Below are positions 1,720 through 36,700 of a stretch of DNA of 36,700 nucleotides, in pieces (the first letter of the stretch is position 1; each line of letters begins with the position of its first letter). Source of the stretch: a virus; the IMG/VR virus record IMGVR_UViG_3300020477_000071, positions 1 through 36,700 of that record; one strand, given 5' to 3'. The notes under the pieces are model-generated. The model was not told the DNA's origin and did no database searches. It saw only the letters and a list, made by a program, of their open reading frames with translations. Both the position numbers and the translations under genes were made by a program.

Positions 1720-1728
1720 AGTATAATA
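1720..1728 (+). promoter_or_regulatory. Promoter P1 (AGTATAATA class) for the tail tube gene
   Basis: AGTATAATA with a perfect TATAAT at 1722-1727, in the 57-base gap before the tail tube gene. The only -35-like hexamer is TTGGCA at 1697-1702 with a long 19-base spacer. The longer block AGTATAATATAAAGA nearly matches AGTAAAATATAAAGA upstream of the portal gene. A dedicated promoter for the abundant tube protein makes sense. Confidence 0.6.
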
Positions 1729-11342: not shown

Positions 11343-11726
11343 ATGCGTACCGATAAAAAGATTGTTCGACTACGAACAAGGCAACCGTTATTGACCGGCT
11401 CAGAAATTGGGCGTAGACTAAATGTATCCCGAGAATATGTTTATAAAGTACTAAAAGACGCTGGATTAAATAACAAGCAACCGCACTATAAGAAAAATAT
11501 AGTGCTATGTAAGGTTTGTGGAAGCATAACTCCACGAAAGCAAGTATTTTGTCCGACGGGGGATTGTAAACGGAAATATTTTTATGTGGATGTAGAATGT
11601 TCATTTTGCCATCATAAATTTCATTTACAACGAAGCCATGTGGTTCAGCGTCATAAAAGAGGTATGAAACATATTTACTGCAGCCAGAAGTGTTATGGTC
11701 TGGGGCAGAGGGATGGTATAAGCTAG
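11343..11726 (+). CDS. HTH protein with cysteine zinc-binding region
   Basis: 127 residues; ATG immediately follows the hub/fibre TAA, with only a weak GGG upstream, so translation is probably coupled. Residues about 16-42 form a helix-turn-helix (LLTGSEIGRRLNVSREYVYKVLKDAGL). Two cysteine clusters follow: CKVCG with CPTGDC at about 56-76, and CSFC with YCSQKC at about 84-118, suggesting two zinc sites. The second resembles zinc fingers that accompany phage homing endonucleases, but I see no HNH or GIY-YIG catalytic motif. A DNA-binding regulator is the simplest reading, especially next to the sigma-like gene. The 3' end overlaps the likely start of that gene. Confidence 0.6.
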   Translation: MRTDKKIVRLRTRQPLLTGSEIGRRLNVSREYVYKVLKDAGLNNKQPHYKKNIVLCKVCGSITPRKQVFCPTGDCKRKYFYVDVECSFCHHKFHLQRSHVVQRHKRGMKHIYCSQKCYGLGQRDGIS

Positions 11727-12283
11727 ATTTGGAGATTAATGAGGAACTCTTAGAAAAATGGGAGCCCAAGGTCCAAAAGTTTTTACAAACTACTTTTGTA
11801 AACGGTATGGATCGAGATGACATCGCCCAAGAACTTCGTATAGCCATAGTAAAAGCTGCGTCTCATTTTGATAATTCTAAAGGGGTTGTTTTTCACACAT
11901 ATCTTCATACCGTTATGGTTAATACGTTACGAACGTTAATAGCAAAAGCTCAAAAAACCAAAAATGTTAATATTACGTATAGTATAGACGGCATGGATGT
12001 AGACGATAATCCACAAGGGTTTTTACCTAATGAAATTGCTAATTCGTTATCGGATACAACTGCCTTAGAGTTTATTAACAATGTAGAATTGATGGATATT
12101 ATTACTAGATCAGATTTAACCACTAGCGAACTTCAATTCTTAGAGCTTCGTCTTGAGGGCATGACCATGGAGTATATTTCAGAACGCTTAGAAGATTCGG
12201 CATATAAGATTCGAAATACCATCCAAAAAAAGATACAAGCCTTTGTAATTACGAGGGATAAACTAAATGAGAAGAAAACTTAA
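11690..12283 (+). CDS. Sigma-70-like (ECF-size) phage transcription factor
   Basis: Up to 197 residues. Two starts are possible: GTG at 11690, overlapping the preceding gene by 37 bases, or TTG at 11729 just after its stop; neither has a strong ribosome site. A sigma region-2-like segment is clear: MDRDDIAQELRIAIVKAASHFD, then GVVFHTYLHTVMVNTLRTLI, matching the 'D-L-Q-E ... A-x-x-x-F-D ... F-x-x-Y' pattern of sigma-70 proteins. A region-4-like HTH lies near the end (LTTSELQFLELRLEGMTMEYISERL ... IRNTIQKKIQ). This architecture fits a small alternative sigma factor that redirects host RNA polymerase. It may read the repeated AGTATAATA elements found here, which lack clear -35 boxes. Seen: region patterns. 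Inferred: promoter target. Confidence 0.7.
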   Translation: MLWSGAEGWYKLDLEINEELLEKWEPKVQKFLQTTFVNGMDRDDIAQELRIAIVKAASHFDNSKGVVFHTYLHTVMVNTLRTLIAKAQKTKNVNITYSIDGMDVDDNPQGFLPNEIANSLSDTTALEFINNVELMDIITRSDLTTSELQFLELRLEGMTMEYISERLEDSAYKIRNTIQKKIQAFVITRDKLNEKKT

Positions 12284-26110: not shown

Positions 26111-26119
26111 AGTAAAATA
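26111..26119 (+). promoter_or_regulatory. Promoter P2 (AGTAAAATA variant) for the portal operon
   Basis: AGTAAAATA, one base different from the AGTATAATA element, lies 48 bases before the portal ATG in the only real gap of this area. The longer block AGTAAAATATAAAGA differs from P1 by one base. No -35 hexamer at a proper distance is visible. Confidence 0.5.
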
Positions 26120-28754: not shown

Positions 28755-29002
28755 CTAATAAATTGTGCCCTAAATGTGCAGGTTCTTTATATGTAAACAT
28801 TGATACAGATTTAAGCTGTATGATGTGCGGTAAAACCATAGCATTAAGGAGAGAACTAGATGAAGTCAAAGATACCAGAAGAGGCCAAAGAACACCTGAT
28901 AAAGAAACGCCTACTAGGAGCAACGTGGCCCGAACTAGTAGAGTATTTGCAAAAGGAATTTGGGGTCAAAATACATCGTACCAACATCGCAATTTGGTAT
29001 AA
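28751..29002 (+). CDS. Small zinc ribbon protein
   Basis: 83 residues; ATGA overlap with the preceding stop. Residues 6-27 form a zinc ribbon: CPKC, a strand pair, then CMMC. The remaining 50 residues are basic and low in hydrophobics (RRGQRTPDKETPTRSNVARTSRV). They overlap the metallophosphoesterase gene out of frame by 143 bases, so the tail may be constrained mostly by that gene. Small ribbons of this type bind nucleic acid or protein partners. I cannot say which. Confidence 0.6.
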   Translation: MTNKLCPKCAGSLYVNIDTDLSCMMCGKTIALRRELDEVKDTRRGQRTPDKETPTRSNVARTSRVFAKGIWGQNTSYQHRNLV

Positions 29003-30209
29003 AAACGAAGTTGATATTGAAAATGTTGATCCTGCTGGGATTGAACTAGATAGCTTAAAAGACCGTTTAAGTATAGATCAAAAGTTAGCAACTGCAAACG
29101 CCCGTGCGCTATATTATAGACGGCTCTACAATCAAGCTTTACAGAAAGACCGTAAGTCTAATTATTTAATAGACGCTATTTACGAAGCTACTTTACCTTT
29201 TCAAAAAGTTAAACCTATAAAGTACACCAAACCTACAGGTAAACGTAGAGGCGAATCTACCCAAACCGTAGTAGCTCCTCTTACTGATACACATATTGGT
29301 GAAGATGTTGATTACCAACAAATGGCTGGCCTAAACTCCTATTCATTTGAAATTTTTAATAATAGACTTTCGGGTTGGGCAGACCAAGTATTAACTTTAG
29401 TTGAACTCCGCAGAGCTTCGGTTCCTATAGATGATTTAATAGTACCTATGCTTGGCGACATGATATCAGGCGATATACATGACGAGCTCATAAAAACTAA
29501 TCAAGATAATGTTATGGGGCAGATGATTAGAGGAGCTAATTTAATTGCGCAAGCGTTAATGTCATTTGCACCACACTTTAAGACTATCACAGTACCTTGT
29601 GTAGTAGGTAATCACGGTAGAATGACTCGCAAACCCCCAATGAAAGATAAATATATGGACTGGGACTACATGCTTTATCAATGGGTTGCCGCTTTCTGCA
29701 AACATCAGACTAACATTAAATTTCAAATTAACACTAGTTATATGAACATTTTCCAAGTATACGATAAAAACGTTTTGATTATGCATGGAGATAGTGCTTC
29801 TGGAGCAGGATCAATAGCCACCATTACGAAAGTATTAACTAATTTACGGTCCGTTTTACAATTTAGAAAAGGGTTAGAACCTGAAAACGCTGAAGCTAAT
29901 ATGGAAATTTTAGAACCTAATTTGCTACCAACTAGTTTTGATTCGGTAATGATGGGGCATTTCCATAGAGTTGATGAGATAGACATAGGCACTGGCCACG
30001 CTATTATATGCGGATGTATGAAGGGTGGAGATGAGTTTGCGTTACAGAGACTAGCAGTTATTACTAAACCACAACAAATTGTAACCTATTGGCACCCTAA
30101 ATATGGCTATATAGGTAAAGAAACTATATATCTAAACGCATTTGATAATGTAGATAGTAAATTTGTGGACGTTTTGCCTGAAGTTTGGGCAGAAAGCCCC
30201 TCTTTTTAA
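28860..30209 (+). CDS. Metallophosphoesterase (calcineurin-like) with N-terminal HTH
   Basis: 449 residues; ATG after AAGGAGAGAACTAG, inside the zinc ribbon gene. Residues about 8-48 form an HTH-like unit (LLGATWPELVEYLQKEFGVKIHRTNIAIWY). The phosphoesterase motifs are complete: Asp143-x-His145 (LTDTHIG), GDMISGD (Asp200), GNHGR (Asn251, His252), MHGD (His309) and GHFH (His367, His369). These coordinate two metal ions for hydrolysis of phosphodiesters or phosphomonoesters. Phages often carry such an enzyme among head genes; its substrate is unknown. The end of the gene overlaps promoter P5 and the left arm of a hairpin over the next ribosome site. Confidence 0.8.
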   Translation: MKSKIPEEAKEHLIKKRLLGATWPELVEYLQKEFGVKIHRTNIAIWYKNEVDIENVDPAGIELDSLKDRLSIDQKLATANARALYYRRLYNQALQKDRKSNYLIDAIYEATLPFQKVKPIKYTKPTGKRRGESTQTVVAPLTDTHIGEDVDYQQMAGLNSYSFEIFNNRLSGWADQVLTLVELRRASVPIDDLIVPMLGDMISGDIHDELIKTNQDNVMGQMIRGANLIAQALMSFAPHFKTITVPCVVGNHGRMTRKPPMKDKYMDWDYMLYQWVAAFCKHQTNIKFQINTSYMNIFQVYDKNVLIMHGDSASGAGSIATITKVLTNLRSVLQFRKGLEPENAEANMEILEPNLLPTSFDSVMMGHFHRVDEIDIGTGHAIICGCMKGGDEFALQRLAVITKPQQIVTYWHPKYGYIGKETIYLNAFDNVDSKFVDVLPEVWAESPSF

Positions 30210-30227
30210 GTATAATAATTAGAGGGG
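30197..30227 (+). promoter_or_regulatory. Hairpin that can mask the ribosome site of the neck gene, enclosing promoter P5
   Basis: CCCCTCT (30197-30203) pairs perfectly with AGAGGGG (30221-30227). The right arm is the ribosome binding site of the gene starting at 30239. The 17-base loop contains the AGTATAATA element. A long transcript would hide the ribosome site, while an RNA started at P5 would lack the left arm. Confidence 0.65.
30209..30217 (+). promoter_or_regulatory. Promoter P5 (AGTATAATA) inside the hairpin loop
   Basis: Exact AGTATAATA with TATAAT at 30211-30216, overlapping the final bases of the phosphoesterase gene. The expected start near 30223 would give a short leader of about 16 bases that keeps an AGGGGGGG ribosome site before the ATG at 30239. 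Confidence 0.55.
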
Positions 30228-30238
30228 GGGATGTTTCT

Positions 30239-30790
30239 ATGCCAAGACTATCGAGTAAAGTACCTTTAGCTACTGCTAAAATTAACGCTGGGTTTATTAA
30301 ATTAAGTAAAGCGGCATTTGACCGGTCACAAGAAGCACGTCCTCCACGTACTCCTATTTCTGGTATAGGGGATAGAGCTGGGTATGTTCCAGTACAAACT
30401 GGGAGATTGCAAGCATCTGGGCGATTTTCAGTACCGTTTAATTCTACTTTTATACTTGAAACTCATTTAATATATTTTGCTCCGTATGCATCCAAAGTAG
30501 AATTTGGCAGTGATGACAATGAATCAACTTATGATCCAAATGCTGTATTTCAAGTTCGAAATTCACGGTCAAAAACTGGATTTAGTGAATATACAGGAGG
30601 AAGAAGACCTATGTATATTGAAGAAATTGGGGAATATAGAACGGTTCCTGTAGTACAAAATGCAGATAGGTCTTTTTCACGAGCTGGCAGAGGGGGCCAA
30701 CAAGGTAGATTATTCGTTACACGAGCTGTAACACAGTTATTTAGAGAAGCGCTAGGTAAAAGGTATGCTTTTCAACAATATGTAGACTAG
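30239..30790 (+). CDS. HK97-gp10-like neck / tail completion protein
   Basis: 183 residues from ATG at 30239, seven to eight bases after AGAGGGGGGG; an in-frame start 54 bases upstream would lie inside the preceding gene. The pattern VPVQTGRLQASGRF, then IYFAPYASKVEFGSDD and later QGRLFVTRAVTQLF, is characteristic of HK97 gp10-type proteins: a helix, 'TG-x-L-x-x-S', then 'YA-x-x-V-E-F-G' and a C-terminal helix. They join head and tail. Its location before the scaffold and capsid genes, away from the other neck genes, is unusual. Expression may be set by the hairpin/promoter element described upstream. Confidence 0.65.
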   Translation: MPRLSSKVPLATAKINAGFIKLSKAAFDRSQEARPPRTPISGIGDRAGYVPVQTGRLQASGRFSVPFNSTFILETHLIYFAPYASKVEFGSDDNESTYDPNAVFQVRNSRSKTGFSEYTGGRRPMYIEEIGEYRTVPVVQNADRSFSRAGRGGQQGRLFVTRAVTQLFREALGKRYAFQQYVD

Positions 30791-31148: not shown

Positions 31149-31157
31149 AGTATAATA
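31149..31157 (+). promoter_or_regulatory. Promoter P3 (AGTATAATA) for the scaffold-capsid operon
   Basis: Exact AGTATAATA with TATAAT at 31151-31156, 110 bases before the scaffold ATG and just after a terminator. No -35 hexamer is present at the proper distance (CGTAAA). It should drive the scaffold and major capsid genes and leave a leader of about 100 bases. Confidence 0.65.
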
Positions 31158-31179: not shown

Positions 31180-31266
31180 TATATAACCGCTTACGGAGAG
31201 GTCGGACGTGGCTTAGACCAACCTTTCTTAAAGTAGTATAAAAAACTATTATAAGGAGGACCACTA

Positions 31267-32058
31267 ATGGCAGATGAGATTTATAGTCGAATCGAAAAGC
31301 AATTAGAAGGCAATAGTCTGGCTCTTTCCGCTGTAGCTGAAGTACTTCAGAAAATGGACGCAAGAATGTCCGAACAAGATGAAGTTGCTATAGCTAAACA
31401 GGAAGAAGAAGCTGCTGCAGCTGACAGACAAGCTCTTATTAAAGAGATTGCTTCTGAAGTTGCAACTATTATCAAAGCTGATGCTGGCATGGATGTTTCT
31501 GGTGAGGTTCGTCCCGCTGAAGGCGCAGGTAAAACTGCTGCTGACGCTGACGACTCGGAAACTGAAATAGAGCCTACTTCAAACATCGAAGACCAACAGG
31601 CTACTATCCAAGCAATGGCACATGAAGATGAAGAAGAAGACGTAGAAAAAGAAGAGGACGAAGACGCTGAAAAAGCAATGTATTACAAAGAAGAGAATGG
31701 CGATGACGAAGATGTCGAGAAAGAAGAGGATGACGACGACGAAATTAAAGCAATGGCTAAACAATTAGAAGAATTGAAGAAGCAAGTTGCAGATTACGAA
31801 GTTAACATGCAAAAATCAATTCAGACTGAATCTGAAAATAGATTGAGAAAGATGGGATTTAGAGAGGAAACTAGTCTGAATGCACCTAAAATGGTTGACC
31901 CACTAGGTGTAGATGGTACTGATGTCATACAAAAAGGTACTGATAACCTCGATACTGTAGACCAGTTAACTAATTTGTCTTACAAAGAACTAAGAGATCT
32001 ACAGACCAACATTGAACAAGGTAACACTGACGGTGTACCACAAGAATTACTCGGATAA
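31267..32058 (+). CDS. Capsid assembly scaffolding protein
   Basis: 263 residues; ATG after AAGGAGGACCACTA (strong site). It directly precedes the major capsid gene. Features are those of scaffolds: an N-terminal helix (SRIEKQLEGNSLALSAVAEVLQKMDARM), Ala/Glu-rich helices, a very acidic stretch at about 118-160 with a near-repeat of DVEKEED, a coiled coil (QLEELKKQVADYEVNMQKSIQ) and a C-terminal helix (YKELRDLQTNIEQG) likely to touch the capsid protein. It would be removed by the prohead protease encoded further down. There is no similarity to enzymes. Function is from position and composition. Confidence 0.75.
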   Translation: MADEIYSRIEKQLEGNSLALSAVAEVLQKMDARMSEQDEVAIAKQEEEAAAADRQALIKEIASEVATIIKADAGMDVSGEVRPAEGAGKTAADADDSETEIEPTSNIEDQQATIQAMAHEDEEEDVEKEEDEDAEKAMYYKEENGDDEDVEKEEDDDDEIKAMAKQLEELKKQVADYEVNMQKSIQTESENRLRKMGFREETSLNAPKMVDPLGVDGTDVIQKGTDNLDTVDQLTNLSYKELRDLQTNIEQGNTDGVPQELLG

Positions 32059-32087: not shown

Positions 32088-33422
32088 ATGGCTAATCCAA
32101 GCTTAACCGAATATCTAGCTCAATCCCAAAGAGGATTGTATCAGTCAGTATTTGGTCCTGAGTACATGCAAAAGCAGACCTACCATACCGTAGACACTGC
32201 TACTGGCATATTTAATACTACTTACGGCCGAAAAGTCTGGCAATCATTGAATAACCAAACTCGTTTCTTCAATGCTATCCCAAGAGTTGTTTGGGGTAAC
32301 ACAGCTGGTTGGAGGGTACGAACTGACAGAGGTTCAGGACGTAGCCGACCTGTCACTGAGACTGGTAGCCTCCCAACTGTAGACATTTCCAATATAGAAA
32401 CCGTTTCTTCACTACCAAGAATCGTAGGTACAACCTTCGGTGCTTCCGTGAAGTCCGTTTTCTCCGCACAATTAGAAGGCGGTGTTGGTGATGTTTTGGC
32501 ATTGGAAAACGAAAATGCACAAATGGACCACGTTAAAGAAATTAACGAAGAATTATTGGCAGGTTCTGCGTATCTAACATCCGCAGGAGCTACCACCACC
32601 TTTACTGTGCCAGCATCTATTGCAAAGCACTTTAAAGTTGGAGACGCTGTAGCACAATACGATGCTTCAGCAACTGGGCACGACAGACAAACTGGTTCTG
32701 TTGTTTCCGCAGTTAACACCTCTACTGGTGTTGTCACAGTAGCCACCGGAACTACTTTTGCCGATGGTGATATAGCCTATATTTACAGCAGAGGTGGAAT
32801 GACTTCCATCGACGACATTGTTATGCAAGACGGAGCTGCTGTAGGTGGCGTAACTTCCAGAGTAAGAGCTTATGACTTAACTATTAATGACAGAGCTTCT
32901 GGAAACTGGAATGCCGGCGCATCTGTTTCTTATAACAGCGGTAGCGGTAGAGACTTAACTCTCGCTATGCTGGATACTGCTATTCAGAAAATTAGAGAAA
33001 ACGGTGGCGAGCCAAAGCTAATCCTACTAGGACATGACCAATATTTTAATCTTGAAAGACTGTTAAGCTCTAACCAGCGATACATGGGTCAAGAAGAGTA
33101 TCAGGTCGGCGTAGGCTCAGAAAGAACTTTCCCAGGCACTCGAACTGGATTAGTTCTGGCAACGTATATGGGAATTCCAATACTCCCAGATGCAGACGTG
33201 CCAAAATCAGTCGCAACTAACGACGCAGTTCTAGGATCAAATGTTTATGTCTTAGACACAGACTACCTAGAAATTGCTGTTGCACAACCTACTCAGTATG
33301 TTGAAAACCGAGACTACTTCGCAGCTAATGCGTTAGTAGTAAGAGGTCTACTCTATACTATGGGTGAATTGCGATGCAAGAACATGTTTGTTCAATCCAA
33401 GATTGCGGACCTCAATAGCTAA
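32088..33422 (+). CDS. Major capsid protein (HK97 fold) with an inserted beta module
   Basis: 444 residues; ATG after TAGGAGGAAATGAGT. HK97-fold pattern: N-terminal arm, RFFNAIPRVVWGNTAGWRVRTDR, then the spine-helix region (ALENENAQMDHVKEINEELLAG), and a P-domain with LAMLDTAIQKIRENGGEPKLILLGHDQYFNLERLL, MGIPILPDADVP and a beta strand set near the end (VVRGLLYTMGELRCKN). Residues about 161-236 (TTTFTVPASIAKHFKVGDAVAQYD ... TGVVTVATG) form an insertion resembling the beta module in the tube and hub proteins. Codon choice is richer in C-ending codons (TTC, AAC, ACC) than in the replication genes, as expected for the most highly expressed protein. A strong hairpin follows. Confidence 0.88.
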   Translation: MANPSLTEYLAQSQRGLYQSVFGPEYMQKQTYHTVDTATGIFNTTYGRKVWQSLNNQTRFFNAIPRVVWGNTAGWRVRTDRGSGRSRPVTETGSLPTVDISNIETVSSLPRIVGTTFGASVKSVFSAQLEGGVGDVLALENENAQMDHVKEINEELLAGSAYLTSAGATTTFTVPASIAKHFKVGDAVAQYDASATGHDRQTGSVVSAVNTSTGVVTVATGTTFADGDIAYIYSRGGMTSIDDIVMQDGAAVGGVTSRVRAYDLTINDRASGNWNAGASVSYNSGSGRDLTLAMLDTAIQKIRENGGEPKLILLGHDQYFNLERLLSSNQRYMGQEEYQVGVGSERTFPGTRTGLVLATYMGIPILPDADVPKSVATNDAVLGSNVYVLDTDYLEIAVAQPTQYVENRDYFAANALVVRGLLYTMGELRCKNMFVQSKIADLNS

Positions 33423-36453: not shown

Positions 36454-36462
36454 AGTATAATA
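36454..36462 (+). promoter_or_regulatory. Promoter P4 (AGTATAATA) ahead of the long inverted repeat
   Basis: Exact AGTATAATA with TATAAT at 36456-36461. The expected start near 36468 is just before the inverted repeat at 36471, so the RNA would begin with that hairpin. No -35 box is clear. It would drive the cysteine-rich gene and, if the molecule is circular, the neck genes at the left end. Confidence 0.6.
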
Positions 36463-36470
36463 ATATAAGC

Positions 36471-36546
36471 GATCTAATTAGTAGTATGTGGTTAATCTAG
36501 TCATATGTAAACGTGCGTAGGTTAACCATATACTACTAATTAGATC
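36471..36546 (+). repeat. Long inverted repeat (25-bp arms) in the gap before the cysteine-rich gene
   Basis: Arms 36471-36495 and 36522-36546 are complementary over 25 bases with one mismatch, which would be a G-U pair in RNA. The 26-base loop contains CATATG. The arms start GATCTAATTAGTAG. It is by far the longest palindrome noticed in the window. It could be a 5' mRNA stem-loop, a small RNA, a protein binding site or a replication/packaging signal. It does not fold like a tRNA. Confidence 0.85.
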
Positions 36547-36574
36547 ATTCTTAACACAATTAGAGGGGGGACTT

Positions 36575-36700
36575 ATGGACAATGCCTTAGACCACGAGTG
36601 TATCTGTAATTGTGAGGAAGCAGATTCCGAACAATGTATATGTAAAGCCGAAGATGGGTGCAGTTGTCAGGGATGTGGATGTGAAGCGAATGTACCGATA
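36575..36700 (+). CDS. Cysteine-rich, metallothionein-like N-terminus (runs off the window)
   Basis: ATG at 36575 follows GAGGGGGGACTT. The 42 visible residues contain nine cysteines in paired CxC motifs (ECICNC, QCIC, GCSC, GCGC) mixed with acidic residues, the style of metal-binding, metallothionein-like peptides. The reading frame is open to the window edge and is the same as that of the partial ORF at 1-132. Joined, they would give 85 residues with a cysteine-rich first half and an acidic second half. A structural role is suggested by the head-neck neighbourhood, but metal binding or storage is only inferred from the motif pattern. Confidence 0.65.
   Translation, partial: MDNALDHECICNCEEADSEQCICKAEDGCSCQGCGCEANVPI

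Follow-up and report, generated by a model that had tools for sequence, protein, structure and literature searches.

The window, a 36.7-kb virus record of an uncultured lineage analysed over its full 36,700 nucleotides, contains a junction at which an exonuclease gene is followed by a neck gene. The features of this junction are as follows.

28860..30209, + strand: exonuclease gene (phrog_284, SbcD/Mre11-like; hmmscan E=1.5e-49)
30197..30203, + strand: left arm CCCCTCT, complementary to the Shine-Dalgarno (SD) sequence of the neck gene and carried only by transcripts that come through from upstream
30209..30217, + strand: AGTATAATA, -10-like element of a late promoter class; it lies in the loop of the hairpin and overlaps the stop codon of the exonuclease gene
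30222 (30221-30223), + strand: putative RNA start, placed from the TATAAT-N5-ATG spacing of leaderless relatives
30221..30230, + strand: right arm and SD sequence AGAGGGGGGG of the neck gene (SD duplex -9.6 kcal/mol)
30239..30790, + strand: HK97-gp10-like neck gene encoding 183 aa (the family alignment has TGxLxxS...YAxxVExG as conserved columns)

The exonuclease gene ends with GAA AGC CCC TCT TTT TAA (stop codon TAA at 30207-30209), and the left arm sits within its coding sequence, in the last four codons. The ATG of the neck gene (30239-30241) lies 29 nt beyond the stop codon and is separated from AGTATAATA by ATTAGAGGGGGGGATGTTTCT. Direct reading of the sequence and the predicted fold bear out the original prediction that CCCCTCT can pair with AGAGGGG (30221-30227) at the ribosome site of the neck gene, with a promoter on the gene strand in the loop between the arms. 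The right arm is actually longer, containing seven G residues and extending to G30230, the fold has an additional inner UUA/UAA stem, and the arms are symmetrical around the -10 element. By energy alone the hairpin is modest, because its fold z-score is only -1.7 to -1.8. A search of Rfam gave no match, and a reading of the hairpin as a terminator was rejected, there being no terminator-like U tract after the stem.

The profiles PF04883 (HK97-gp10_like) and PF11114 (Minor_capsid_2) each match three of nine members of the neck family and do not directly match the protein of the window itself; together with the family alignment, these matches make "neck gene" a fair name. The neck protein found no relatives when used as the query, and relatives were gathered with the exonuclease instead. 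Among the window and four relatives (L164, L165, L166 and L167), the neck gene is 24-34% identical, whereas the adjoining upstream exonuclease is 82-92% identical, which suggests either fast divergence of the neck gene or cassette exchange beginning at the promoter. No close cultured phage was found for the window, and megablast against phages gave no match; that the lineage is marine is no more than a guess. The major capsid protein (gene at 32088-33422) carries an SU10-type capsid domain; within the phage collection it comes nearest to the capsid proteins of the haloarchaeal tailed viruses HCTV-1 and HVTV-1 (27-30% identity over half the protein), and a search of GTDB genomes yielded no close relative, only one partial match of 32%. 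Yet the promoters, PolA, DnaB and sigma factor are bacterial in type.

The promoter class and a phage-encoded sigma factor

Further members of the promoter class and two sigma-related genes are found elsewhere in the window.

1720..1728, + strand: AGTATAATA promoter of the same class, in the tail module
11343..11726, + strand: small protein with a helix-turn-helix that scores as Sigma70_r4 (PF04545, 25.4 bits, cutoff 24.1)
11690..12283, + strand: phage-encoded sigma factor, comprising region 2 and an end that resembles region 4 (Sigma70_r2, E=2.3e-11)
26111..26118, + strand: AGTAAAAT, ahead of the portal gene and likely a weaker representative of the class; in relatives, AGTATAAT stands at roughly the corresponding position
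31149..31157, + strand: AGTATAATA promoter before a leader RNA, ORF 31267 and the major capsid gene
36454..36462, + strand: AGTATAATA promoter after ORF 36236

The window has four copies of the element AGTATAATA, where 1.06 are expected, all of them on the gene strand. AGTATAAT is strongly strand-biased, with 198 copies on the gene strand and 8 on the opposite strand (81 loci, redundancy included), and the region upstream of 119 deduplicated AGTATAAT sites is AT-rich. A TAGGATTTTT box precedes AGTATAAT at -20 to -11 in the promoter of the capsid gene and is often found upstream in the class; the copy at 30209 has no such box and may therefore be weak. In almost all of 109 distinct regions the motif coincides with the exonuclease stop codon or follows it immediately, and of the 118 regions in an enlarged set, searched allowing close variants, 103 have AGTATAAT or a close variant (GGTATAAT, AGTACAAT) behind the exonuclease gene. 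In three records (the window, G001 and G004), 27 copies of AGTATAAT at gene junctions are in structural or late regions and none is in the replication module; as early genes hold 27.5% of the bases, the chance of finding none of 27 among them is about 2e-4 by our own arithmetic. The strand bias, the preference for late over early junctions, and a spacing of 5 nt to the ATG in many relatives make it very probable that AGTATAAT serves this phage family as a genuine late promoter.

The spacing also indicates where transcription is likely to begin. Among the 103 regions with the motif, 53 have 5-8 nt from TATAAT to ATG, and AGTATAAT stands exactly 5 nt before ATG (TATAAT-N5-ATG) in many relatives. 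In 51 of the 53, no SD sequence is detected at -6 kcal/mol, and the median best SD energy is +0.7 kcal/mol. Such leaderless genes (for example in L211, L219, L098 and L248) make up about half of the family. A spacing of N5 to N8 can be understood only if transcription begins on or beside the ATG, and we therefore infer a start at about 30222 in the window, where the gap from the -10 element to the ATG is 22 nt and includes an SD sequence. The start near 30223 that had been proposed fits the 30222 +/- 1 implied by these relatives.

The sigma factor ORF (11690-12283) matches TIGR02937 over residues 18-182 (52.6 bits, cutoff 42.9) and has homologues in G001 and G004; this protein is the candidate reader of the AGTATAAT promoters. 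It forms a two-part sigma-like pair with the region-4-like helix-turn-helix protein (11343-12283), situated between the tail fibre gene, which it adjoins, and the replication genes. As for transcription from upstream, scans detected no terminator-like site on the + strand between 26966 and the promoter at 30209, and AGTAAAAT at 26111..26118 is one possible source of read-through RNA.

Predicted masking of the Shine-Dalgarno sequence in the window and its relatives

Masking was measured as the modelled cost of opening the 7-nt SD sequence. In the window, this cost is 12.6-14.3 kcal/mol for any tested RNA that starts at or before 30197, 6.4-6.7 kcal/mol for RNA starting from 30200, and about 2.4-3.7 kcal/mol for RNA starting between 30204 and 30224; the probability that the SD sequence is unpaired in read-through RNA is about 0-0.1 in silico. 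Deletion of the left arm in silico lowers the cost from ~14 to ~3.4 kcal/mol, and shuffled upstream arms give mean costs of 4.9 (p 0.02) or 5.2 kcal/mol (p 0.01). The window's own arm is the best masker of the 25 arms in a swap matrix. With the start placed by the spacing of the leaderless relatives, 3' of the left arm, the helix could not form in the short RNA. The original prediction of a long RNA that is off and a short RNA that is translated thus holds in part: the predicted gap in SD access is large (~13-14 versus 2.5-3.5 kcal/mol), but the left arm is itself translated. With a ribosome on the exonuclease stop codon, covering 30190-30220, the modelled cost falls from ~14 to 4.4 kcal/mol, and coupling to exonuclease translation becomes possible; to call the read-through RNA simply off is therefore too strong. 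When the last ten exonuclease codons are recoded synonymously, the cost still averages 8.8-8.9 kcal/mol (window p ~0.09), and therefore the Ser-Pro-Ser peptide alone favours pairing.

Across the family, an arm masks its own SD sequence better than swapped arms do. In 25 hand-picked lineages, own arms average 5.85 kcal/mol against 4.38 for swapped arms (5 of 100,000 permutations; 17 of 100,000 with the window left out), and in 23 regions chosen by a sequence-similarity rule rather than by hand the averages are 5.95 and 4.12 (3 of 100,000 permutations). A synonymous-codon test on 23 unselected regions gives a combined p of 0.001 (Fisher) or 2e-4 (Stouffer). Of 37 promoter-linked SD starts, 7 show masking of at least 9 kcal/mol, against none of 104 SD-led starts without a nearby promoter (Fisher 5e-5), a comparison to be weighed in the knowledge that a conserved capsid leader RNA was set apart from these controls after the data had been seen; in an earlier control set without this separation, 14% of ordinary junctions were masked, mostly through that one RNA. 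Counting the clade of the window (the window, L167 and L003) once leaves 5 of 35, or ~8e-4 by our own arithmetic. Independent strong hairpins, differing in their arm sequences, occur in L008 (AGCTCCTC/GAGGAGCT, z -4.4) and L082 (z -3.5), and masking in L144 and L158 likewise exceeds 9 kcal/mol.

Conservation is nevertheless patchy. The strongly masked state (at least 9 kcal/mol) is present at 7 of 117 tips, with 7 changes on the tree. In the close clade, L165 and L167 keep the hairpin, whereas it is weakened in L164 (a C-A mismatch in the stem, 7.7 kcal/mol) and in L166, in which masking is only 4.9 kcal/mol with an exonuclease 92% identical to that of the window; there, own arms are not the best partners, and swapped arms are often equally good. 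Of the ten stem pairs in this clade, seven are invariant, two vary on one side, and one shows a change on both sides (C-G to U-A) plus one unpaired case. The co-variation of the arms that the original prediction looked for in relatives is thus present as one compensated pair, offset by one mismatch, within the close clade and at a level not above shuffles. Relatives with non-complementary arms, which it counted as contrary evidence, are represented in part by L166, L164 and the many SD-type relatives that have no hairpin. Masking is absent from most SD-type relatives, including a large group with AAGGAGATTTATT leaders. In L170 and L172 the SD sequence is so near AGTATAAT that a start at the promoter would remove it, which is the opposite of the proposed logic. 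Taken together, the models indicate that the masking arrangement recurs in several related lineages above chance, yet is not conserved in all of them.

Proposed start-site gating, its rivals and the T4 precedent

The best explanation as a whole, with a probability of about 0.47, is that the neck gene is gated by the RNA start through a promoter placed within the hairpin. The element at 30209-30217 would be a late promoter, and the sigma factor that the phage encodes would be its probable reader. On read-through RNA, the last codons of the exonuclease gene would fold back on the SD sequence of the neck gene and hide it, and neck translation would be low and dependent on ribosomes finishing the exonuclease gene; RNA from ~30222 would have no left arm and would open with an unmasked SD sequence right at the 5' terminus. 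Free translation of the neck gene would be confined to this promoter-started RNA. As the left arm is coding sequence, covered by a ribosome at the stop codon, the read-through RNA would not be simply off, and gating and coupling are likely to act together.

Ordinary translational coupling might suffice, neck translation being tied to exonuclease termination, the promoter merely adding RNA later, and its position in the loop having no special role. The location of the left arm, the drop in SD cost under a terminating ribosome and the short distance from stop to ATG all agree with this account, but coupling would be expected at any junction, and ordinary SD junctions are not masked as promoter-linked ones are; for this reason the link to the promoter is favoured over plain coupling, which we consider unlikely, also given that in about half of the family the neck gene is without an SD sequence. 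Slightly less unlikely is a chance pairing of a G-rich SD sequence with neighbouring Ser-Pro-Ser codons, the promoter and SD sequence being normal and the hairpin without a role in this phage. The unexceptional fold z-score, the pairing that survives synonymous recoding and the weak masking in the nearest relative are what such an accident would produce; the swap test, the comparison with controls across lineages and the independent hairpins of L008 and L082 are not. We consider it very improbable that the inverted repeat is an operator enclosing the promoter, active at the DNA level, or a site of RNase III-like processing: the symmetry of the arms about the -10 element would suit an operator, but the arm sequences diverge freely from one lineage to the next although AGTATAAT remains constant. 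This is not the pattern of a conserved operator, and the operator reading was rejected on this ground.

Start-site gating has a precedent in the T4 genes e, soc and 49, in which a helix hides the SD sequence on long RNA and a late promoter omits the 5' arm (PMC3014915), and the original prediction described the junction as a switch of this type. In T4 as in the window, the SD sequence would be sequestered only on long transcripts, RNA from a late promoter would be without the 5' arm, a sigma-family protein is phage-encoded, and a late structural or lysis gene lies behind earlier-transcribed genes. The T4-type late promoter element recognized by gp55, TATAAATA, is absent at the site, where the element is AGTATAATA, which therefore does not belong to the T4 promoter class; the expectation of a different class was correct, the consensus here being AGTATAAT, often with TAGGATTTTT upstream. 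The phage, with its SU10/HVTV-like capsid protein and PolA, is unrelated to T4 by the genes examined; its sigma factor has region 2 and a region-4-like end and is not gp55; the left arm belongs to the final codons of the preceding gene; and conservation is patchy. The architecture is thus the same, but it would be a T4-like working variant and not a member by descent. Similar hairpins hide the SD sequence on early or middle read-through RNA of I-TevI, I-TevII, I-TevIII, segB and Aeh1 mobE, and a late start omits the 5' part (PMC2988022); the logic is alike, but the genes concerned there encode homing endonucleases in T4-type phages, whereas the present case concerns a neck gene with a constant position in the head operon, in a phage family unrelated to them. 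No such switch outside T4-type phages was found among the open-licence texts that the searches listed, which is weak evidence of novelty.

The leaderless mRNA of about half the family may reach the same gating by having no SD sequence on read-through RNA, whereas on RNA begun at the promoter the ATG would itself form the 5' end. Leaderless mRNA from promoters with only a -10 element is reported for mycobacteria (PMC4633059); it resembles the TATAAT-N5-ATG arrangement without an SD sequence, but here it concerns a phage family and one fixed late gene, and is interchangeable with SD-led versions. A broader proposal, which we regard as doubtful though somewhat less so than chance pairing, is that throughout the family a late promoter read by the phage sigma factor at the exonuclease stop codon yields either leaderless mRNA or short-leader mRNA freed of its hairpin, that lineages switch between the two, and that the logic of T4 e and soc evolved here independently. 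If the device described for e, soc and I-TevI in T4-type phages does operate with another sigma factor, promoter class and capsid lineage, start-site-gated translation would be a recurrent phage solution, and the relatives, with leaderless, masked-SD and open-SD forms at one conserved place, would be a natural experiment in silencing late genes on read-through RNA.

The capsid leader RNA and other hairpins

The leader RNA set apart above is conserved and lies at 31187-31269, between the promoter at 31149 and ORF 31267 with the major capsid gene. Its motif is AAGGTCGG-nn-GTGGCTTAGACCAACCTT, and it has no match in Rfam. Among 26 sequences, 20 positions do not vary. The outer stem (12-16/35-39) is 99.5% paired and shows changes on both sides at three of five pairs (0 of 500 shuffles). 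Its CCAACCTT side can pair with the SD sequence AGGAGG, and 18 of 66 sites of this class are masked by at least 9 kcal/mol. This RNA is possibly a new regulatory leader. At 36454-36600 a long inverted repeat (GATCTAATTAGTAGTAT...ATACTACTAATTAGATC) comes after the promoter AGTATAATA, and behind the promoter at 1720 there is likewise a hairpin (AAAGAACGCAAAATGTTCTTTTT).
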